Shown in pieces: positions 9,676-23,633 of a stretch of DNA of 27,383 bases. The stretch covers positions 1 to 27,383 of IMG/VR virus record IMGVR_UViG_3300001351_001046, one strand, 5' to 3'. Below the pieces are notes generated by a model. That model worked only from the letters and a program-made list of their open reading frames with translations, did not search any database and was not told the DNA's origin. Made by a program: the position numbers and the translations under genes. The DNA comes from a virus. Each line of letters opens with the position of its first letter. Positions within the stretch are counted from its first letter, which is position 1.

Positions 9676-10352
9676 TGAAAATCTGGCACATTAGTGATAC
9701 ACACACATTCCACGAATTATTACAAATACCAGAAGGTATTGATATGGTTATTCATAGTGGAGATTGTAGTAACCCAAGAGACCCTTATACAAATGAACCT
9801 GAAGTAAGAAGATTTATTGACTGGTTTAGTAGTTTAGACATAAAGTATAAAGTATATGTTGCCGGAAATCATGATACATCGATTGAAAAAAAGTTAGTAA
9901 CTAAAGCAGACTTTAATGAACACGGCATTGTATACTTAGAAAACGAAACTTATGAAATAGAAGGTATTAAGATCTTTGGATCTCCACATACTCCTCAATT
10001 TGGTAATTGGGCATTTATGAAAGCTAGAAATAAGTTGGATAGAATTTGGGGAAGAGCAATCCCAGATGATGCCAATATTGTTATTTGCCATGGTCCACCA
10101 CGAGGGATGTTAGATTTGTCCTATGATAGAAATAATCTTATGGAGCATTGTGGTGATAAATCACTAATGAATAGAGTTATGGAAGTAAAACCAAAACTAA
10201 TGTTATTTGGTCACATCCACAACAACAAAGATATAGTAAATGCAGGTACTAGAAAGGTATATGGTTTAGATACTATATTCTCAAACGGTTCTGTGGTTAC
10301 TGATGGAAAATTTGGTAAATTAAGTAGTCAAGGAAATATATTTGAATTATGA
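9675..10352 (+). CDS. Calcineurin-like metallophosphoesterase
   Basis: 225 aa with the full metallophosphoesterase motif series: HISDTH (residues 5-10), HSGDCS, AGNHD, CHGPPRG and FGHIHNN, which together form the two-metal site. Phosphodiester or phosphomonoester hydrolase; substrate unknown. The protein is shorter than SbcD/gp47-type recombination nucleases and lacks an extra capping domain, resembling cytosolic single-domain phosphoesterases. Its start shares the last A of the previous stop, and its end overlaps the next gene by ATGA. Confidence 0.85.
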   Translation: MKIWHISDTHTFHELLQIPEGIDMVIHSGDCSNPRDPYTNEPEVRRFIDWFSSLDIKYKVYVAGNHDTSIEKKLVTKADFNEHGIVYLENETYEIEGIKIFGSPHTPQFGNWAFMKARNKLDRIWGRAIPDDANIVICHGPPRGMLDLSYDRNNLMEHCGDKSLMNRVMEVKPKLMLFGHIHNNKDIVNAGTRKVYGLDTIFSNGSVVTDGKFGKLSSQGNIFEL

Positions 10353-10654
10353 TACCAGGAGTACAACCTAAATTATTATTAAATTTTGATACTGAAGAAC
10401 CTAAATATAGGTTAGTTCGTGAAAGAGATAAACTTGTAAAAGAATCAGCTAGAGTTTTATGGTTAGAATTTAATGAAGATAGAACTTTTAAAGAACAATT
10501 TGAAGAAGCTTCAATTGGTAGAAGTTTAATTATGTCACCATTCAATCATTATTTTACATGGCAAACTTCAACAGTAACCGAAATTGTAGAACAACGAGAG
10601 GATTATATTAAATTTAAGACAGGAAATAGTAATTACGAATTATTTAAAATATGA
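10349..10654 (+). CDS. 101-aa hypothetical protein
   Basis: Soluble, charged, with no signal or membrane segment. N-terminal IPGVQPKLLLNF, and central RERDKLVKESARVLW helix; the second half is aromatic (HYFTWQTS). Overlaps the phosphoesterase and the next gene by four bases each (ATGA), so it is coupled in translation to both. No family recognised. Confidence 0.6.
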   Translation: MIPGVQPKLLLNFDTEEPKYRLVRERDKLVKESARVLWLEFNEDRTFKEQFEEASIGRSLIMSPFNHYFTWQTSTVTEIVEQREDYIKFKTGNSNYELFKI

Positions 10655-10899
10655 AAGAACAAGAAATTAAAGATTTAGGATTTGAAGTACAACATGAAAC
10701 AGTGGAAAGCTCAGGACACGATACAGATTGGCATTACTATACACTTGATATAGGTGATATTTGTTTAATTACAAATTCTAATGATGAAGCAGTAAAGGAT
10801 GGATGGGAAGCATCTATATTTGACTTTCCATCTTGTGTAATTAAAAATATTGGTGATTTGAAAGCTTTAATTAACATTATGAAAAAGAATAGTATATGA
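10651..10899 (+). CDS. 82-aa hypothetical protein
   Basis: Small acidic protein, likely alpha/beta, with aromatic and His residues (SSGHDTDWHYYTLDIGD). No catalytic motif recognised. ATGA overlaps at both ends, immediately ahead of dpdA, put it in the same translational chain. Confidence 0.6.
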   Translation: MKEQEIKDLGFEVQHETVESSGHDTDWHYYTLDIGDICLITNSNDEAVKDGWEASIFDFPSCVIKNIGDLKALINIMKKNSI

Positions 10900-11687
10900 A
10901 AGTATCACACGAAGTACCCCGCTGTTTATTAACAGTATCCCCCGAGTTCAATGATTACGAATATATATTACCTCACTTGTTAGATCAAGATGAAGAATAT
11001 AAACAATATTTTTTAGATGCTAAAGCTAAAGGACGTTATATTGTAATGGACAATTCATTACATGAACTTGGAGAAGCATATAACAGTGAACGTTTATTAT
11101 ATTGGATTAATGAAATAGAACCAGATGAATTTATGGTACCTGATGTTTGGATGGATTGTCATCAAACAGCAGCACAAGCAAAGTACTGGCTTCAATTTAA
11201 ATTCCCAGAAAAAACTAAAAAGATAGCAGTAATTCAAGGTAAGGATAAAAACGACGCTTATTTATGTGCTGGGTTATTAAGGGAATTAGGTTACGATAAA
11301 TTATGTGTATCTTATGGTGCTACTTGGTATAACAATTTCTTCCCACACACCAATGTGGATATGGGAAAAGCATTAGGTAGAGTACGATTTGTACAAGGTT
11401 TATTAAATTTATCTCATTTAAAAGATGTTAAATTTCATTTATTAGGATGTGCAATACCTCAAGAATTTGGTTGGTATGACAATGATTCTCGAATAGAATC
11501 AATTGACACCTCAAACCCAATAATGGCTGCTTTAGAAGGTACTTGGTATAGTGAAAATGGTTTAAATTCTAAACCAAAGGCAAATATGAATGACTATTTT
11601 GATATAGGCTTTTCAAAGGTTGATTATCTAAATGTTAAATATAATGTAAATAAATTTAGAGAAATAGTTAAAAAACATATCACATAA
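10896..11687 (+). CDS. dpdA: DpdA-like DNA 7-deazaguanine transglycosylase
   Basis: 263 aa, related to the tRNA-guanine transglycosylase superfamily in its phage DpdA form. DpdA swaps guanine in DNA for a 7-deazaguanine base. Features I recognise: YIVMDNSLHELGE (residues 48-60, an active-site Asp at 52 in the position of the TGT DSGGFQ segment), KIAVIQGKDKN, LCVSYGA, and HLLGCAIPQEFGWY followed by IESIDTSNP, where the Asp may be the nucleophile. The zinc-site cysteines of bacterial TGT are absent and the protein is shorter than TGT (about 375 aa), as in phage DpdA. The presence of folE, queD, queE and queC downstream strongly supports this call. Last gene of the operon from 9044. Confidence 0.8.
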   Translation: MKVSHEVPRCLLTVSPEFNDYEYILPHLLDQDEEYKQYFLDAKAKGRYIVMDNSLHELGEAYNSERLLYWINEIEPDEFMVPDVWMDCHQTAAQAKYWLQFKFPEKTKKIAVIQGKDKNDAYLCAGLLRELGYDKLCVSYGATWYNNFFPHTNVDMGKALGRVRFVQGLLNLSHLKDVKFHLLGCAIPQEFGWYDNDSRIESIDTSNPIMAALEGTWYSENGLNSKPKANMNDYFDIGFSKVDYLNVKYNVNKFREIVKKHIT

Positions 11688-11692
11688 AACTA

Positions 11693-11723
11693 GGATACCC
11701 CATATATCTGTCGTATATTTACG
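11693..11723 (+). promoter_or_regulatory. Promoter-like module, best example
   Basis: GGATACCC, ten bases, TCGTATATTTACG. Followed by an A-rich leader ending in AAAAATAAAAGTTATG. Drives the genes at 11753-12644. Confidence 0.6.
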
Positions 11724-11752
11724 TATTAGAAACAATTAAAAAAATAAAAGTT

Positions 11753-11944
11753 ATGATGTCACTTTTCGATTACCAAGGTCACGCAGATAAAGACGGGACA
11801 GGATTAAAAGTTAATGCTTATGCCATGTTAAAAAAACAACCTTATAAAAAAAGGTTATTAGAGTTTAATGGTATGGAAGTATTTTTATATACCGAAGAAT
11901 TTCTAAAGGAATTTTTTGAAATCCAAGAAATTTTTAAGGCATAA
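11753..11944 (+). CDS. 63-aa hypothetical protein
   Basis: Starts at ATG 11753 or the adjacent ATG 11756. Contains MSLFDYQGHADKDGTG and a Lys-rich middle, with an acidic/aromatic end (YTEEFLKEFFEIQEIF). Soluble. First gene after the best promoter-like module and therefore likely highly expressed. No family recognised. Confidence 0.6.
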   Translation: MMSLFDYQGHADKDGTGLKVNAYAMLKKQPYKKRLLEFNGMEVFLYTEEFLKEFFEIQEIFKA

Positions 11945-11947
11945 ATT

Positions 11948-12457
11948 ATGGCAAATAGCAATAGAACAGAGATCTATATAGAAGGATCTAAAGAAGCAAT
12001 TGATAATTTTGTAGAACGATTTGAAAAGTGTCATAGTGGTCCTTACCCAAACCAAGAAGAAAACCCCCACATAGCAGATGAATTTGGGGCAGATGCTGAA
12101 TTATTTATTGATAAAGTTGGTTCAAAATGGATAGAAATTTGGGATGAGGGATTTTATCGCTCAAGTGATAATAGATGTGAAATCTATTTAGATTCAGCTT
12201 GGTATCCACCATCAGATATGATTTTAGAAATTTATAGACAAATGGCTGAAATTGATGATGAAATCAAAGTATCAGGTAAATACTGGGATGAAGGACATCA
12301 ACCAATAGGAGTATTCGAAGTATACTATGGGCAGATAATTTCGGAAGAACAAAGTATTGATGATGATGAAGATCAAGAATATTTTTGGGGTGATGTAATT
12401 GAACCTGCGTTCGAAATCCTCCAAGAGAGATTAGATAAAGTAATGAAAGAAATATAA
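11948..12457 (+). CDS. YubB-ferredoxin-like (DUF1281-type) protein
   Basis: 169 aa. Pattern includes a 60-80 region with KVGSKWIEIWDEG, then LDSAWYPPSDMILEIYRQM and a GVFEVYYG strand. The 'SAW-x-PP' segment followed by an amphipathic helix and a G-V-F strand resembles the YubB ferredoxin-like domain found on plasmids and phages, whose function is not known. The C-terminus is very acidic (SIDDDEDQEYF). The stop overlaps nothing but the next start is only one base away. Confidence 0.5.
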   Translation: MANSNRTEIYIEGSKEAIDNFVERFEKCHSGPYPNQEENPHIADEFGADAELFIDKVGSKWIEIWDEGFYRSSDNRCEIYLDSAWYPPSDMILEIYRQMAEIDDEIKVSGKYWDEGHQPIGVFEVYYGQIISEEQSIDDDEDQEYFWGDVIEPAFEILQERLDKVMKEI

Positions 12458-12458
12458 T

Positions 12459-12644
12459 ATGGCAGAATTTATAAGACACGCATTAGGTCTTTGTGGAGAG
12501 CACTACCATCCAAACCTATTGACACTTCTCATAGGAGGGGTTGGGTTTTCAACTATTTTTTCGTATGTTCGATCATATATAAAATGTAAAATTAATCAAG
12601 CGTTTGCCTATACGCAAAATACCTGGCAAAAATTAAATAAATAA
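12459..12644 (+). CDS. 61-aa single-pass membrane protein
   Basis: N-terminus MAEFIRHALGLCGEHYHPN is followed by a hydrophobic segment, LLTLLIGGVGFSTIFSYV (about residues 20-38), and a basic tail. The segment just before the helix, LCGEHYHP, concentrates Cys and His and could bind metal; that is inference. Last gene of the 11693 unit. Confidence 0.5.
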   Translation: MAEFIRHALGLCGEHYHPNLLTLLIGGVGFSTIFSYVRSYIKCKINQAFAYTQNTWQKLNK

Positions 12645-12649
12645 AAACA

Positions 12650-12676
12650 GGATTAGCCTATATCCATATAATACCT
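12650..12676 (+). promoter_or_regulatory. Degenerate promoter-like region before queC
   Basis: GGATTAGCC at 12650 and CCATATAATA at 12664 resemble the upstream box and the TATATT box but do not match the TCG core. An 11-base direct repeat AATACCTGGCA occurs near 12618 and again near 12670, flanking this region. Confidence 0.3.
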
Positions 12677-12700
12677 GGCAGTTATAAATTTAAATAAATT

Positions 12701-13585
12701 ATGAGTAAAACAAAAAAACATTGCGTAGTTAGTCTTTCAGGAGGAATGGATAGCAGCACATTACTATTAAGAGCATTAAAAGAATATGATACTGTAACAG
12801 GTATTTCATTTGATTATGGTCAAAAACACAGAGTAGAATTAGAAAGAGCTCAACAATTAGTAGATTATGTAAATAATAACCCTATGAGAGTATATCATCA
12901 TGACCATGCTGAAAATGGTTTTGAAGAAGTATATTCTAAAATTAATTACCGTCAAATTAAATTAGATGGTTTAGCAGATTTACTAGATTCAGCATTAGTT
13001 GAAGGTGGAGATGATGTTCCAGAGGGACATTATGAGAATGATAATATGAAAGAAACAGTTGTACCTAATAGGAATAAGATATTTGCTTCTATTACACAAG
13101 CTGTAGCATTATCCGTAGCAAATAAAACAGGAGAAAAATGTCATATTGCTTTGGGAGTACACGCCGGAGATTTTGAAGTTTATCCTGATTGTAGACAAGA
13201 ATTTAGAGATGCCGATGATACCGCTTTTAGAGAAGGTAACTGGAACGCTGATATGGTAGGATACTTTACACCTTATATCAAAGGTAATAAATTTACAATA
13301 TTACAAGATGGGGAAAAATTAGTTGAGGAACTAGGTTTATCATTTGATGAGGTGTACAAACGTACAAACACCTCATACAAACCATATCCTTCAGGTAACT
13401 CAGATTATAAATCAGCATCAAGTGTTGAACGTATTGAAGCATTTATCGAATTAGGAAGACGTGACCCCGTTCAATATGAAGATGAGAGTGGCGAAGTATC
13501 TTACGAAGTAGCAGAAGCACACGTAAGAGAAATACTTGCACAACATGGTAAAACCCATACTGTAGCTGTATTAGGAAGAGATTAA
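12701..13585 (+). CDS. queC: QueC-like 7-cyano-7-deazaguanine synthase without zinc cysteines
   Basis: Uses ATP and ammonia to convert 7-carboxy-7-deazaguanine (CDG) through the amide to preQ0. The N-type ATP-pyrophosphatase loop is SGGMDSS (residues 13-19), with FDYGQKHRVEL at about 37-47, VPNRNKIF at 121-128 and GVHAGD at 152-157, all QueC landmarks. Length 294 aa exceeds the usual 220-235; the extra part is C-terminal. The family's Cys4 zinc motif should lie in residues 222-243, but this stretch reads TNTSYKPYPSGNSDYKSASS with no Cys at all, while the flanking VERIEAF is kept. So the enzyme is either zinc-independent or altered in the nitrile-forming step. Lies between dpdA and queD. Confidence 0.85.
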   Translation: MSKTKKHCVVSLSGGMDSSTLLLRALKEYDTVTGISFDYGQKHRVELERAQQLVDYVNNNPMRVYHHDHAENGFEEVYSKINYRQIKLDGLADLLDSALVEGGDDVPEGHYENDNMKETVVPNRNKIFASITQAVALSVANKTGEKCHIALGVHAGDFEVYPDCRQEFRDADDTAFREGNWNADMVGYFTPYIKGNKFTILQDGEKLVEELGLSFDEVYKRTNTSYKPYPSGNSDYKSASSVERIEAFIELGRRDPVQYEDESGEVSYEVAEAHVREILAQHGKTHTVAVLGRD

Positions 13586-17923: not shown

Positions 17924-18121
17924 ATGAATTATTGGCAAGTAGACGTAAAGTTAACAATGGAACATGAAAGTGGCAAAATCCAAAAAGTAACAGAAAAATA
18001 CCTAGTAGAAGCAGTATCACCAACAGATGCAGAAGCTAAAGTATACAAAGATTTTGAAGGTGAAAGTAATTTTACAGTAGACAAAATCGTAAAAACAAAA
18101 ATTATTAAAATTATATCTTAA
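17924..18121 (+). CDS. DUF4494-like protein
   Basis: 65 aa. WQVDVKLTMEHESG, then QKVTEKYLVEAVSPTDAEAKVY and a final beta strand, closely resembling the short DUF4494 family of Bacteroidetes, whose function is not known. Good support for the host group. Its stop shares an A with the next start (TAATG). Confidence 0.7.
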   Translation: MNYWQVDVKLTMEHESGKIQKVTEKYLVEAVSPTDAEAKVYKDFEGESNFTVDKIVKTKIIKIIS

Positions 18122-18663
18122 TGAGTAATCAATTAAGTTTATTTAGCGAAGCAGATGTGCCTTTTGTTAATGAAGTAGAAATATTTAACGGCACATTCGG
18201 TAAACCAAATAATTATGAACCAAACATACCAGAAAAAAAAGAATGGCAATTCGTTTACGACTTCGTACTCGAAGAACTTGAAGAATATAAAGAAGCTTGC
18301 GAAAAAGGAAACATCGTGGAAGTTTTGGACGCTTTGTGCGATATTGCTTATGTTTCCCTTGGGAACGGTACTATGTTACACGGTCTTAAAGATAAGATAT
18401 GGCCAGCTTATCAAGAAGTACAAGCAAGTAATATGTCAAAAGCTTGCGTATCTGAGAAAGAAGCCTTGGATACCGTCAGCTTACGAAGTAAGGAACAAGG
18501 TGAGGCCTGCCATTTTACGAAACTTGAGGAAGGACGGTATATTGTCTATAGATCTAGAGACAAAAAAGTAATGAAAAATGTTAATTACTTTAGACCTGAC
18601 TTATCGCAATTCTTTACAACTGAGGAATTGGCTAAAAATTATTTAGCAGAAACGATTATATAA
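18121..18663 (+). CDS. MazG-like nucleoside triphosphate pyrophosphohydrolase
   Basis: 180 aa. All-alpha NTP-PPase signature EELEEYKEA followed by EVLDALCDIAYVSLG (E-x-x-D), the metal-binding pattern of MazG/HisE-type enzymes. QASNMSKAC with following Glu continues a pattern seen in the Bacteroidetes branch. Hydrolyses NTPs or dNTPs to monophosphates; phage MazG proteins can clean nucleotide pools or alter the stringent response, both possible here. The N-terminal MSNQLSLFSE tail resembles a clamp- or SSB-interacting end only loosely. Confidence 0.75.
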   Translation: MSNQLSLFSEADVPFVNEVEIFNGTFGKPNNYEPNIPEKKEWQFVYDFVLEELEEYKEACEKGNIVEVLDALCDIAYVSLGNGTMLHGLKDKIWPAYQEVQASNMSKACVSEKEALDTVSLRSKEQGEACHFTKLEEGRYIVYRSRDKKVMKNVNYFRPDLSQFFTTEELAKNYLAETII

Positions 18664-18719: not shown

Positions 18720-20480
18720 ATGTATAAGAAAGCATATACTGGTAATAAATTAAAACATTTAGGTCCTAATTGGGTTGAAATCCACCTTTGGGAAGAGGAT
18801 AAAGGACATCAAATAGTACCTTACAACAACATAGCATACCAGGAATGTACTGAAGAAGAACAAACACATACTGGGTTAAATGGTGAGCCTCTTAAACCAA
18901 TATCTAAATGGTTTTTTTCTAAAAACCCTGATTACAGTTCTAAGAATACCCCAAATTTACATTTCCACGATATGAAACCCCATCAAAAGTTTCTAGTTGA
19001 AAAATATGGTGTAAACGATGTTCCTTCTAAAGGGCATAGAGAAGTGTTTTTTGATATTGAGTGTGAAATAGGGGGTGCTTTAACTGAAGAATATATTGAA
19101 GATGCACCAATGCCTATTACCTCTATTGCTTGGTGGGATAAACAAAAAGATTATTGGTCTATTCTTATTTTAGATAAAAAAAGTCAACTAAAACATACAA
19201 AAACGGGAGAAAACAAGAATAAAGAAATTATACCTTGTGCTACTGAAAATGAATTGTTAGCTAAATTTGTTGAAGCAATAAGAGAAATGGATCCTGATAT
19301 TTTAGTAGGATACAATTCAGATTATTTTGATATTCCTTATTTGTACTACAGAATGTGTAGAACAATAGGTAAAGATTGGGCTGATCATTTATCTCCTATT
19401 GGTAAAGTTAATTCAAAAAAGGGTAACAAATATTTCTTTAAACAAAATCAATATGTAGATATTGTAGGTATTGAATCATTAGATTATATTCGTTTACATA
19501 AAAAATATAGTTGGAAGGATGAACCAAGTTGGAAGTTAGATGCTATTGGAGCCAAATATGTTGGTATGAATAAGGTTGAATATGAAGGAAACCTAGATCA
19601 ATTATTCGAAACAGATATCCATAAATTTATTCAGTATAACTTTGTTGATGTAGAAATACTTCAAAAATTAGATGAAAAATTACAATATTTAGCTTTAACT
19701 AAAAATATAGCACACAAAGGAAAACACAATTACAGTGAAGTGTATGCTAATAGTATTTCACAAGATGGAGCAATTTCAGCTTATTTATTATCCCAAGATA
19801 TAATTCCTCCCCCAAAAGAACCTAATCCACAAAAGAAAGAATCGTATGCAGGAGGATACCTTTTTTGTCCCAAAGCAGGATTGTATAAATATATGTTTGA
19901 TGAGGATTTAACATCGCTGTATCCGTCTATAATAATGTCTATAAACATAGGTAAGGAAACATTCGTGGGTCGTATTGTAGATGCTAATGAACGTAATAAT
20001 AGACTGGGACTTAACGATTTAAAGGAACGTGATCCTGAAGAATTATTATTAGTTGAAAACGGCAAACGTAGACAAACTAATGTTAAAGTAAGTGACTTAA
20101 TTAATATAATTGAATCCCAAAAGTTAGCTGTAGCAGCTAATGGCTCAATGTTTAGAACAGACAAAGAAGCAGTATTATCTACTATTCTTAAAAAATGGTT
20201 TGAAGAACGAGTTATTTATAAAACCCGTATGAAAAAAGCATATAAAGCCGGTGATAAAGAATTAGGTGAATATAATCATTTAATGCAGTACACCATGAAA
20301 ATTTTGCTGAATTCACTCTATGGTGCGACAGCTTTACCAAGCTTTAGGTATGGAATGAATTTCCAAACATTAAGTGAAGCAATCACATTATCAGGACACA
20401 GAATTATTCAAGAATCAGCTTTATGTGCTAATAGACACATGAATAAAGTTATGAAGGGTCTAATTCAATTAGATATATAA
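18720..20480 (+). CDS. 43A: DNA polymerase, family B (gp43), N-terminal fragment
   Basis: 586 aa carrying the N-domain, the 3'-5' exonuclease and most of the palm/fingers. Exonuclease residues: D112 and E114 in FFDIECE, which agree in numbering with T4 gp43; GYNSDYFDIPYLYYR; YNFVDVEILQKLD. Polymerase motif A is FDEDLTSLYPSI (near residue 395) and motif B KILLNSLYGA (near 527). It then stops after VMKGLIQLDI without motif C. The missing YxDTDS and thumb are encoded at 21940. Together the pieces give 897 aa, nearly the length of T4 gp43 (898). Not a simple frameshift, since 1.46 kb with four genes lies between. Confidence 0.92.
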   Translation: MYKKAYTGNKLKHLGPNWVEIHLWEEDKGHQIVPYNNIAYQECTEEEQTHTGLNGEPLKPISKWFFSKNPDYSSKNTPNLHFHDMKPHQKFLVEKYGVNDVPSKGHREVFFDIECEIGGALTEEYIEDAPMPITSIAWWDKQKDYWSILILDKKSQLKHTKTGENKNKEIIPCATENELLAKFVEAIREMDPDILVGYNSDYFDIPYLYYRMCRTIGKDWADHLSPIGKVNSKKGNKYFFKQNQYVDIVGIESLDYIRLHKKYSWKDEPSWKLDAIGAKYVGMNKVEYEGNLDQLFETDIHKFIQYNFVDVEILQKLDEKLQYLALTKNIAHKGKHNYSEVYANSISQDGAISAYLLSQDIIPPPKEPNPQKKESYAGGYLFCPKAGLYKYMFDEDLTSLYPSIIMSINIGKETFVGRIVDANERNNRLGLNDLKERDPEELLLVENGKRRQTNVKVSDLINIIESQKLAVAANGSMFRTDKEAVLSTILKKWFEERVIYKTRMKKAYKAGDKELGEYNHLMQYTMKILLNSLYGATALPSFRYGMNFQTLSEAITLSGHRIIQESALCANRHMNKVMKGLIQLDI

Positions 20481-20821
20481 TGGAAATAGAAAGTAGACCT
20501 TGGGGAATGTATGAAGTATTATTAGATGCCCCTGAATGTAAGGTAAAAAGAATAACAGTAGCACCTGGTCAAAGGTTATCATATCAATACCACTACAAAA
20601 GAAAAGAAATTTGGACTGTAGTTAAAGGTAATTTAACAATTATTTTAGATGGTGAAAAAGTATTTAGAGGACCTGGACAATCAATAAAAATTGGTTTAGG
20701 AGATAAACATAGAGCTTGGAATGAAACAGGTGGAGTAGTTCAATTTATTGAAGTACAAACAGGAACGTACTTTGGTGAAGATGATATTGTAAGATTAGAA
20801 GACGATTATAAAAGATTATAA
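20480..20821 (+). CDS. Mannose-6-phosphate isomerase-type cupin
   Basis: 113 aa cupin matching the stand-alone C-terminal domain of type II phosphomannose isomerase/GDP-mannose pyrophosphorylase. SRPWGMYEVLL, VKRITVAPGQRLSYQYHYKRKEIW with Q-x-H...E metal ligands, DKHRAWN, and IEVQTGTYFGEDDIVR. Would interconvert mannose-6-phosphate and fructose-6-phosphate, or bind sugar. It starts at the last A of the polymerase N-part stop (TAATG), so it is translationally coupled to it. First of four genes between the polymerase halves. Confidence 0.85.
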   Translation: MEIESRPWGMYEVLLDAPECKVKRITVAPGQRLSYQYHYKRKEIWTVVKGNLTIILDGEKVFRGPGQSIKIGLGDKHRAWNETGGVVQFIEVQTGTYFGEDDIVRLEDDYKRL

Positions 20822-20887
20822 TACCCCGCGCAAACCAAGAGGTAGTGCGTTAAACGCGCGTAAAATGCGCATAAATTACATAATAAT
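20822..20887 (+). other. GC-rich palindromes in the gap between polymerase halves
   Basis: Two perfect eight-base palindromes, ACGCGCGT (20854-20861) and ATGCGCAT (20865-20872), three bases apart in an AT-rich setting. Also CCCCGCGC upstream. No ORF. Possible operator, hairpin or recombination seam. Confidence 0.35.
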
Positions 20888-21151
20888 ATGGCACTTAAAA
20901 AACAATCAATTAGGAGTAACCAATTAATTACAGAAAATGGAGAACCTATTTCTAAAGAAGAATTAATTGCAAGAAGTGAAGAATGGAGTGAAATCCAAGA
21001 AAATTTCTTTAGAAAAATGATTAAACAGGGAGGTACTTTTAAAGTAGCGGGTATAAAATATAATGTATCCCTAGTTGAAAGAAATGACCTAGATTCAAAT
21101 GGAAACAAACCAGTAAAAGTACAACCATTACCTGGAGAAAGAACCTTTTAA
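20888..21151 (+). CDS. 87-aa hypothetical protein
   Basis: Basic N-terminus (MALKKQSIRSNQLI), an acidic helix (KEELIARSEEWSEIQENFF), then beta strands. Soluble; no motif recognised. Second gene of the insert between the polymerase halves; it starts a few bases after the GC-rich palindromes. Confidence 0.6.
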   Translation: MALKKQSIRSNQLITENGEPISKEELIARSEEWSEIQENFFRKMIKQGGTFKVAGIKYNVSLVERNDLDSNGNKPVKVQPLPGERTF

Positions 21152-21161
21152 ATATAAAAAT

Positions 21162-21545
21162 ATGTTAGTAGAAGTATCAAACGGAGAGTTATTAGACAAA
21201 ATTTCAATTTTAGAGTTAAAAATGCTTAAAATTGAGGATAAAGAAAAATTAGTTAATGTTCATAAAGAATTTGACACCTTAAACCCTTTAGTTATAGAAT
21301 TATTTGAAAGATATGATGGGCAACTTCAAAACCACTATCTTGAATTAGCTAAAATTAATGGTGAACTTTGGGATATAGAAGATTGGATTAGAGATTGCGA
21401 ACGTGAAAAGAGATTTGACAAAGAATTTGTAGAACTAGCTCGTTCTGTGTATATTACCAATGATAAGAGATGTGAAGTTAAAAAATTAATTAATATTTTA
21501 ACATCATCAGGTTTAGTAGAAGAAAAATCATATAAAGAATATTAA
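21162..21545 (+). CDS. DUF6165-like protein
   Basis: 127 aa. LVEVSNGELLDKISILELKMLKIEDKEKL at the start and LWDIEDWIRDCEREKRFDKEFVELARSVYITND-type region, ending EEKSYKEY, the pattern I associate with DUF6165, which is often found in surface-polysaccharide gene clusters. Predominantly helical. Its stop shares an A with the next ATG (TAATG), so it is coupled to the cytidylyltransferase. Confidence 0.65.
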   Translation: MLVEVSNGELLDKISILELKMLKIEDKEKLVNVHKEFDTLNPLVIELFERYDGQLQNHYLELAKINGELWDIEDWIRDCEREKRFDKEFVELARSVYITNDKRCEVKKLINILTSSGLVEEKSYKEY

Positions 21546-21943
21546 TGGTAAAAGGGGTTATAGCAGGTAATTTTGATGTAATGCATCCGGGTTATATAGC
21601 AATGTTTAAAGAAGCATCAGCTAATTGTGATTGCTTAGTAGTAATGTTACATACAGACCCTTCTAAAGAACGACCTGAGAAACTTAAACCTATATTAAGT
21701 GTAGAGGAGCGTAAAGCAATGTTACTCTCTCTTATTTATGTTGAGGATGTAGTAAGGTATACTTACGAAGGTCAACTATTAGATTTGTTAAAATACGGTG
21801 AATTTGACGTTAGGTTTTTAGGTGACGATTATATTAATAAACCCTTTACAGGTGATAATCTACCGATTAATGTGTATTATCTTAATAGAGACCATGGTTG
21901 GTCAACAACAAAATTTAAAAAATTAATATTACAGTCAATATGA
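21545..21943 (+). CDS. Cytidylyltransferase-family nucleotidyltransferase
   Basis: 132 aa. Nucleotidyltransferase fold: GNFDVMHPGYIAMFKEA (residues 8-24; HxGH is altered to HPGY), VVMLHTDPSKE, SVEERKAMLLSL, FLGDDYI and the closing STTKFKKL, as in glycerol-3-phosphate cytidylyltransferase or the HldE-type domain. It would charge a sugar- or alcohol-phosphate with a nucleotide. The changed second His of the signature may lower or alter activity. Ends by overlapping the polymerase C-part start by four bases (ATGA). Confidence 0.8.
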   Translation: MVKGVIAGNFDVMHPGYIAMFKEASANCDCLVVMLHTDPSKERPEKLKPILSVEERKAMLLSLIYVEDVVRYTYEGQLLDLLKYGEFDVRFLGDDYINKPFTGDNLPINVYYLNRDHGWSTTKFKKLILQSI

Positions 21944-22875
21944 AACATTTAGAAGAAACACCTTGGTGGATTTGTGATGCAGATGATGAGAATTATTGTG
22001 CTTATGTAGACACGGATTCTAATTATTTTAATGCTGAACCGTTGCTTCTTAAACTATACCCTAATTTTGAAGAGCTTACTGATAAAGAAAAAGATGATAT
22101 TCTGGAAAAAATAGCATTGAAATATCAAGATATTATCAATGAAGATTATGATAGATTAGCACGTGAAGCATTTAATGTTACTGAACATAGACTTGAAATG
22201 AAAACCGAATGTGTTATCCGTTCAGCCTATTTTAGAGCAACAAGACGTTATGCACAATGGATTACAAAGCAAGAAGGTATTGAAAACGAAACACTAGACA
22301 TTAAAGGTTTAGAGTTTATGAAAGCAAATTTCCCACCTATTTTAGGATCATTTTTTAATGATATATTACAACAAGTATTAAAGGGTGAAGAAAAAGCTAG
22401 TATATTAGATCAAATAAAAGTATTTAAAAAGTCTATACTAGATGGTTCAATCCCACTTGCTAAGTTAGGTAATCCATCAGCAATTAAAAAATTAGAAAAA
22501 TACTCAGGTAAGAGTACTAGAGCCGGAGAAATGTTTACTGAAATCCTTAAAGGTGCCCCCGCACCGGTAAGAGCAACAGTTCGTTATAATGATTTATTGA
22601 GACTATGGCAGTTAGATAAAAAACATAATTTAATTACACAAGCGGATAAAGTTAAATTTATATACTTAAAAGATAACCCATATAAAATTGAGGCATTAGC
22701 CTTCCAAGACTATGATATCCCTGAAAAGGTAAATGATTTTCTAGAAAGATATGCCGATAGACAGAAAGTATTTGATTCAATATTATTAAATAAATTAGAA
22801 GGGTTTTTTTCGGACTTGCAATGGTCTTTAGATTTAAATCCTTACACAAATGCATTAGCATCCTTTGAGATATAA
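21940..22875 (+). CDS. 43B: DNA polymerase, family B (gp43), C-terminal fragment
   Basis: 311 aa. Begins just ahead of motif C, YVDTDSNYF, with D24 and D26 as catalytic metal ligands, then a basic RATRRYAQWI stretch equivalent to the KKRY region, and the thumb. The C-terminus ends NPYTNALASFEI. Needs the N-part (18720) for all other active-site residues, so the two must assemble. Its start overlaps the cytidylyltransferase stop by ATGA, which makes translation of the C-part depend on the inserted genes. Confidence 0.92.
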   Translation: MKHLEETPWWICDADDENYCAYVDTDSNYFNAEPLLLKLYPNFEELTDKEKDDILEKIALKYQDIINEDYDRLAREAFNVTEHRLEMKTECVIRSAYFRATRRYAQWITKQEGIENETLDIKGLEFMKANFPPILGSFFNDILQQVLKGEEKASILDQIKVFKKSILDGSIPLAKLGNPSAIKKLEKYSGKSTRAGEMFTEILKGAPAPVRATVRYNDLLRLWQLDKKHNLITQADKVKFIYLKDNPYKIEALAFQDYDIPEKVNDFLERYADRQKVFDSILLNKLEGFFSDLQWSLDLNPYTNALASFEI

Positions 22876-22910: not shown

Positions 22911-23633
22911 ATGGTTAATAAGAGTACACTCACTAGCGTCATTTCAAAATATTATTTAAACGGACTAAATAATCAAGTAAAATGGAGAATTAAAGATAAT
23001 CAACTTACAGTATACGCAGGTAGTAATGGTCGGGTATGTAAAGTACAACACAATAACTTTAATTTAGAAGATGCAGAATTAGGAATATTTGATACCCATA
23101 AGTTAAGTAAATTACTTTCTATTACTAGTGGTGAATTAAATATATCACTTGAAAAAATCAAAGCAGTTTATACTAAAATGCATGTTGCTGATTTAAATTT
23201 TGATTTAACATATTCATTAGCAGATATCTTAATTCTAGGTAAAAATACTTATTATGAAGACCCTGAAGAATTTGAAATACAAATAGATTTAACACGAGAA
23301 GATATTGACCATTTAATTAAAGCAAAAGGTGCTTTAGCTGATGTAAACAATATGTTAATTACTACTACTCAAGATTTTGATGGAGTAAACGTATGTGAAA
23401 TAGTATTTGGTGATAATACTGGTTTTTCAAATAAGATTACTTACCAACTTAGAGGAAATATTACTAAAGGAGATATTCAAATCCCATTTGATTCAGATAT
23501 ATTTAAAGATATATTAAGTGCCAACAAAGATATGGAGAAAGGTACATTAAAAATATCAGAAGTAGGTATGTTAAAAGCAAATTTCTCAACAGAAGAAACA
23601 GAAAGTGAATACTTTATCGCGAGAAACGAATAG
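22911..23633 (+). CDS. 45: Sliding clamp (gp45)
   Basis: 240 aa, T4 gp45 length (228) and pattern: two repeats of a clamp fold with LTVYAGSNGRV, FDTHKLSKLLSI, and ILGKNTYYEDPEEFEI, then DREDIDHLIKA-type second-domain helix and IPFDSDIFKDIL. Forms the ring that holds polymerase on DNA and, in T4, couples late transcription. It follows the polymerase C-part after a promoter-like box, as in a replisome cluster. Confidence 0.85.
   Translation: MVNKSTLTSVISKYYLNGLNNQVKWRIKDNQLTVYAGSNGRVCKVQHNNFNLEDAELGIFDTHKLSKLLSITSGELNISLEKIKAVYTKMHVADLNFDLTYSLADILILGKNTYYEDPEEFEIQIDLTREDIDHLIKAKGALADVNNMLITTTQDFDGVNVCEIVFGDNTGFSNKITYQLRGNITKGDIQIPFDSDIFKDILSANKDMEKGTLKISEVGMLKANFSTEETESEYFIARNE

Follow-up and report, generated by a model that had tools for sequence, protein, structure and literature searches.

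The closest precedent for the polymerase locus described here comes from the Aeromonas phages 44RR and 25, in which a T4-type family B DNA polymerase (PolB) is likewise encoded by two adjacent genes (43A/43B). A conserved replication gene is also broken, with other genes lying between its halves, in the fractured genes that carry split inteins and freestanding endonucleases and that were reportedly described by Dassa in 2009 (a study cited in PMC10448857). For phage 25, the two gp43 halves are reported to co-purify with polymerase activity, and the NrdA of phage Aeh1 is described as split into two chains that work together (PMC2988022). The PolB of Methanothermobacter thermautotrophicus is given as two polypeptides (PMC7776575, citing Kelman 1999).

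Split phage polymerases are therefore already known, and what is new here is a different split site, fixation of the split across a whole lineage, and metabolic cargo in place of a homing nuclease or intein. By alignment, the 44RR break lies at approximately T4 residue 510, before motif B, whereas the break described here lies at residue 609. The Aeromonas break holds an untranslated spacer or, in phage 25, a seg nuclease, while in the present lineage it holds metabolic cargo or nothing; unlike in 44RR and 25, a broad lineage has the split throughout. In contrast to the split-intein fractured genes, the window's break has neither an intein fragment at its ends nor a nuclease. The Aeh1 NrdA, found with mobE, is also a split essential phage enzyme, but it is a different enzyme and its nuclease is still present, and the Methanothermobacter PolB, although also of family B, is cellular and archaeal. 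In the literature covered, which takes in few subscription papers, we found no description of this lineage's split.

The window, by which we mean the whole stretch of DNA analysed (a viral record of 27,383 nt), holds a T4-like replication region with genes for a gp41-type helicase, the two subunits of ribonucleotide reductase, GroEL, four tRNAs, a MazG-like protein, the polymerase and a probable sliding clamp, together with a FolE-like protein and a small heat-shock-like protein whose labels come from sequence reading alone. For the sliding-clamp candidate, all 24 matched chains are PCNA or beta clamp, with a best E of 0.008. Close to tRNA genes, between 12701 and 17414, lie genes for QueC, a radical-SAM protein and the FolE-like protein, which together suggest a phage 7-deazaguanine pathway. 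A near-identity DNA search of named phages with the window returned no match. Among contigs of bacterial genome assemblies, five hold relatives; the assemblies of four are labelled Flavobacteriaceae or Flavobacteriales and that of the fifth simply 'bacterium'. Marine flavobacteria are the likely hosts, the binning of phage contigs being weak evidence. The genes of the polymerase region are listed in Table 1.

Table 1 Genes in and around the divided polymerase of the window.
Feature	Coordinates	Strand	Profile matches
MazG-like pyrophosphohydrolase, upstream neighbour of polymerase	18121..18663	+	PF01503, phrog_671
DNA polymerase N part, 586 aa	18720..20480	+	PF03104, PF00136, phrog_262 25-567
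Cupin, mannose-6-phosphate isomerase C-terminal family, 113 aa	20480..20821	+	PF01050 E 1.7e-27
87-aa orphan protein	20888..21151	+	no Pfam, PHROG, PDB or fold match
DUF6165, 127 aa	21162..21545	+	PF19662 E 2.3e-14
Cytidylyltransferase-like, 132 aa	21545..21943	+	PF01467 E 1.1e-11, phrog_7878 E 4.4e-29
DNA polymerase C part, 311 aa	21940..22875	+	phrog_262 565-842
Probable sliding clamp (gp45/PCNA-like), downstream neighbour	22911..23633	+	weak profile matches

The polymerase belongs to the T4-type (gp43) family B enzymes, as its exonuclease domain, motifs A, B and C, and thumb are all found. The N part, which matches T4/RB69 gp43, contains the exonuclease domain and its motifs, motif A (DLTSLYPSII) and, as its final catalytic motif, motif B (KILLNSLYGA), and terminates with ANRHMNKVMKGLIQLDI and a stop codon. 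The C part opens with MKHLEETPWWICDADDENYCAYVDTDS, so that motif C (YVDTDS) starts about 22 residues in; it consists of a conserved head (MKHLEETPWWICD), this motif, an RRYAQW motif, the thumb and the C-terminal tail ASFEI. Alignment to T4 gp43, which the initial annotation of the locus had proposed, places the last position aligned to the N part at residue 609. In a profile search the two parts adjoin on phrog_262 (25-567 and 565-842 of 856 positions), and therefore no portion of the enzyme is absent or duplicated. The break at residue 609 puts the motif A aspartate and the motif C aspartates on separate proteins, and on the best reading it falls within the loop that joins the motif B helices to the motif C strand. 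The initial annotation had described gp43 as ending after motif B and resuming before motif C 1.46 kb later. This is borne out by the adjoining profile matches, by a 1459-nt gap that contains four intact genes, and by the same split in 98 distinct loci. It had also equated the total length with that of T4 gp43; the sum of the halves (586 + 311 = 897 aa) is indeed close to 898 aa, but the agreement is partly coincidental because the fingers region of T4 is longer in the alignment.

The initial annotation had noted sugar-type genes within the break and overlaps at most borders. Two of the four inserted genes, the PF01050 cupin and the PF01467 cytidylyltransferase, are sugar-type, the latter being close to phage heptose-1-phosphate adenylyltransferase-like proteins; the other two are DUF6165 and the 87-aa protein, for which sequence, PDB and fold searches gave no match and the structure model is of medium confidence (pLDDT 72). 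The account of the borders needs correcting, as three of the five overlap, through TAATG between the N part and the cupin gene (at 20480) and between the DUF6165 and cytidylyltransferase genes (at 21545), and through ATGA between the cytidylyltransferase gene and the C part (21940-21943). The remaining two are gaps, one of 66 nt after the cupin gene, in which RNA structure is not significant (z -0.9), and one of 10 nt between the 87-aa and DUF6165 genes. As the initial annotation had noted, no nuclease is seen in the insert, Pfam and PHROG searches of the four protein genes returning no nuclease family match.

A scan of IMG/VR with each half recovered approximately 125 loci holding both, and the addition of a profile search gave 155 loci in which both halves are complete, corresponding to 98 distinct inserts in the window's clade (clade A). 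A further scan with a more distant relative identified a sister clade (clade B) of 78 loci with 64 distinct junctions. This search of related phages for the same split, also suggested in the initial annotation, shows it to be present in 98 of 98 distinct loci of clade A, with no single-gene polymerase, and in 64 of 64 distinct junctions of clade B, with no single-ORF member. An assembly artefact, the concern raised there, is rejected because the split repeats in more than 150 distinct junctions. The next relatives outward, including Microcystis phage Mel-JY01, almost all encode the polymerase in one open frame, and in our trees clades A and B are sisters, each supported at 98, with the single-gene polymerases outside. 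The simplest reading is that one split event predated the divergence of both clades. At the junction itself, an N tail of ANRHMNK plus about 10 residues is common to 77 of the 98 clade A loci, and residues T7, P8, W9, I11, C12 and D13 of the C head are conserved at 96-100% in the clade; the single-gene relatives do not have this conserved junction head.

Both halves are under purifying selection, the median pairwise dN/dS being 0.17 (N part) and 0.14 (C part); values for the insert genes are 0.18-0.43. We modelled the polymerase of one clade A locus (L120), in which the halves lie in one frame with a single TAA between them, as one chain by reading the DNA through and treating the TAA as a residue, so that the fused model imposes covalent continuity. 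The model (pLDDT 85, pTM 0.78) has disordered junction residues (584-621), and its best PDB matches are to RB69 gp43, with a TM of about 0.8. It supports a canonical gp43 fold with the break in what would be a tolerant loop, and speaks to the fused chain rather than to the assembly of two chains. The initial annotation had proposed a stable two-subunit polymerase, and the fixation of the split in two clades, the constraint on both halves and this model agree with that proposal. The split, its fixation and the selection on it are apparent at the sequence level, and we infer that the two halves assemble and are active together. In our view the locus very probably encodes an old, fixed, non-covalent two-subunit polymerase, the break in which later became a site for cargo.

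The contents of the break turn over extensively. Across the 98 clade A loci the insert ranges from 0 to 4.2 kb and takes 27 architectures. The 87-aa gene is nearly constant (95 of 98 inserts), while DUF6165 is found in 58 of the 98 loci, the cupin in 27 and the cytidylyltransferase in 16; rarer cargo includes a DegT aminotransferase, a GNAT acetyltransferase, an FkbM methyltransferase, a formyltransferase, a glycosyltransferase-like (GT2-like) protein and a phosphomannomutase (PMM). When mapped on the polymerase tree (76 representatives), each of the three commoner cargo genes shows at least 14-16 changes of presence. The sugar theme covers only part of this cargo, several families being without annotation. 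No homing nuclease was recognised with Pfam and PHROGs among the 20 cargo families of the clade, of which several are matchless and the 53-aa and 52-aa families lay outside the scan. The flanks are conserved: 94 of 98 loci have a MazG-like gene upstream of or close to the polymerase, and all 98 have the probable clamp gene after the C part. Three clade A loci (L120, L180 and L183) have a gene-free break, and in L120 the last residues of the N tail (NISPRPYGI) are similar to the beginning of the cupin (ESRPWGMYE), a weak hint that this locus has lost its insert. A cupin like that of the window also lies outside the polymerase in L358 (1155-1481), between phosphoribosyltransferase and MazG genes, and cargo genes therefore sit elsewhere too. 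The L183 phage contig carries tmRNA and tRNA genes upstream of its polymerase (160-847).

A stop-start overlap, as between the two halves in the bare form, is typical of genes that are translationally coupled and made in matched amounts. Among the 95 insert-bearing loci, such an overlap (4 nt or 1 nt) is present at the N border in 66 and at the C border likewise in 66, and the start of the C part keeps its position at or just past the stop of the preceding gene, whichever gene that is. As most insertions keep the border overlaps, the C part would stay translationally linked to the gene before it.

The sister clade shows the break in a simpler state, as 51 of its 64 distinct junctions are bare (41 ATGA, 8 TAATG). 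In 10 sister-clade loci, which are most of those having about 10 kb of upstream sequence, the 87-aa gene lies 6.5-9.5 kb upstream of the polymerase, and in four distinct junctions it lies between the halves. Because of these two locations the 87-aa gene is independent of the break, and has moved in or out several times, with at least 4 changes of entry or exit on the tree. Other sister-clade breaks contain a small Smr-domain gene or a DUF2452 gene, and the break of L373 contains hexapeptide transferase and DegT genes. The initial annotation described the split gp43 genes of Aeromonas phages as usually lying near homing nucleases, and for those phages this is apt. In the two clades studied here, however, the only nuclease recognised in a break is the SegE-like GIY-YIG gene of one sister-clade locus (L434).

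These distributions bear on a further proposal, that translation of the C part needs the inserted genes. In its full form the insert would be a regulatory relay required for the C part, with the four-gene insert functionally tied to the polymerase, as might be read from the overlap of the C start with the preceding stop in most loci and from the near constancy of the 87-aa gene in clade A. However, most sister-clade junctions and three loci of the window's own clade have a bare split, the cargo varies freely and changes repeatedly, and in the sister clade the 87-aa gene lies kilobases away. Dependence of the C part on these particular genes, as initially claimed, is not supported and does not stand against the bare relatives, and a regulatory relay is improbable.

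Breaks before motif C are also found in other polymerases. In LR756508, a 484-kb uncultured phage, several genes likewise lie between the halves, but intein-like sequences are present in both halves and the cargo includes a cytidine deaminase. Its intein-like insertions are at the motif B and motif C sites (L001, 7349-10417 and 13411-15288), and its break holds four genes, two of them similar ORFs. An independent origin of this break was suggested by a first tree and was not retained, as a common clade is compatible with the AU test (p 0.71). The break of the L197 group is independent of the window's (AU p 0.003). In L285 (7671 and upstream), and also in L197, L274 and L275, the polymerase is split by a nuclease-like ORF and its N part ends in an intein-like tail; for this group and for LR756508 we assigned the intein and nuclease labels by reading the sequences, without a family match. 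The C part of L285 opens with MKIKTIKKKNVGVDYNVYTDT, meets a stop inside motif C and, 5 extra bases later, resumes in a different frame. This reading recurs in several contigs, making this a candidate frameshift or bypass, or a broken gene. In L112 (about 10001-13423) the halves are truncated at the break, the N match extending only to residue 519 and the C match beginning only at 131, a candidate for a damaged gene or an assembly fault. Because the L197 and LR756508 breaks are near the window's site, the region before motif C looks prone to breakage, and we hypothesize that this perhaps reflects the homing of inteins or nucleases at the pol-c site close by.

An alternative is that one polypeptide is produced after all, the insert being removed or bridged by self-splicing of an intron, by a split intein, by frameshifting or by reading through the stop. 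Besides the intein-like sequences that LR756508 has at its pol-b and pol-c sites in addition to its gene break, and the intein-like N tail and nuclease-like ORF of the L197 group, this reading could draw on the C frame, which is -1 to the N frame in most bare loci, and on the in-frame halves of L120. However, an Rfam scan that covered the window and five relatives matched tRNA and tmRNA alone and no group I or II intron, and an intron-interrupted polymerase is rejected. An intein at the window junction is also rejected, as the N tails run only about 10 residues beyond the helix and the C head, similarly too short, has no intein signature or motifs. Furthermore, the insert is a chain of intact genes of variable length and frame, while the start codon and head of the C part are nearly invariant. 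We therefore regard a single polypeptide as very unlikely. That the split polymerase is a decaying relic or pseudogene while another enzyme replicates the genome is extremely unlikely, for although the window is a 27-kb fragment and a second polymerase could lie elsewhere, purifying selection is strong, all catalytic motifs are retained, and the split is fixed in two clades and adjoins a probable sliding clamp in every clade A locus.

With a two-subunit enzyme as the preferred reading, the gp43-type polymerase of this large lineage of marine T4-like phages would be produced permanently as two polypeptides from one gene cluster, and the placement of the motif A and motif C catalytic aspartate sites on different chains would require non-covalent assembly. 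Ancestrally, the genes for the two halves probably overlapped directly (ATGA or TAATG), the root state (bare or with the 87-aa gene) being read by parsimony from quick trees with shallow support. The 87-aa gene would later have entered the break in the window's clade, to be followed by swappable cargo, often for sugar or surface-glycan modification. Insertions that restored the end overlaps would have been tolerated, leaving the C part coupled to its nearest upstream gene. Cargo turnover and border overlaps are themselves read directly from the loci, whereas translational coupling and a benefit from the cargo are what we infer from them. More tentatively, the break could be a standing docking site at which phages swap cassettes of host-surface and sugar genes through recombination within the conserved polymerase halves, the cassettes being retained since disruption of the chain would cost the phage its C part, and the 87-aa protein might be a polymerase-associated factor captured into the break.

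The lineage indicates that the division of a replicative polymerase between its two catalytic aspartate motifs can be stable across a large group of phages, and that a break, once opened, can serve for the swapping of metabolic cargo rather than for housing a homing element. Together, the bare, one-gene and multi-gene states form a natural series on the origin, assembly and exploitation of split enzymes.
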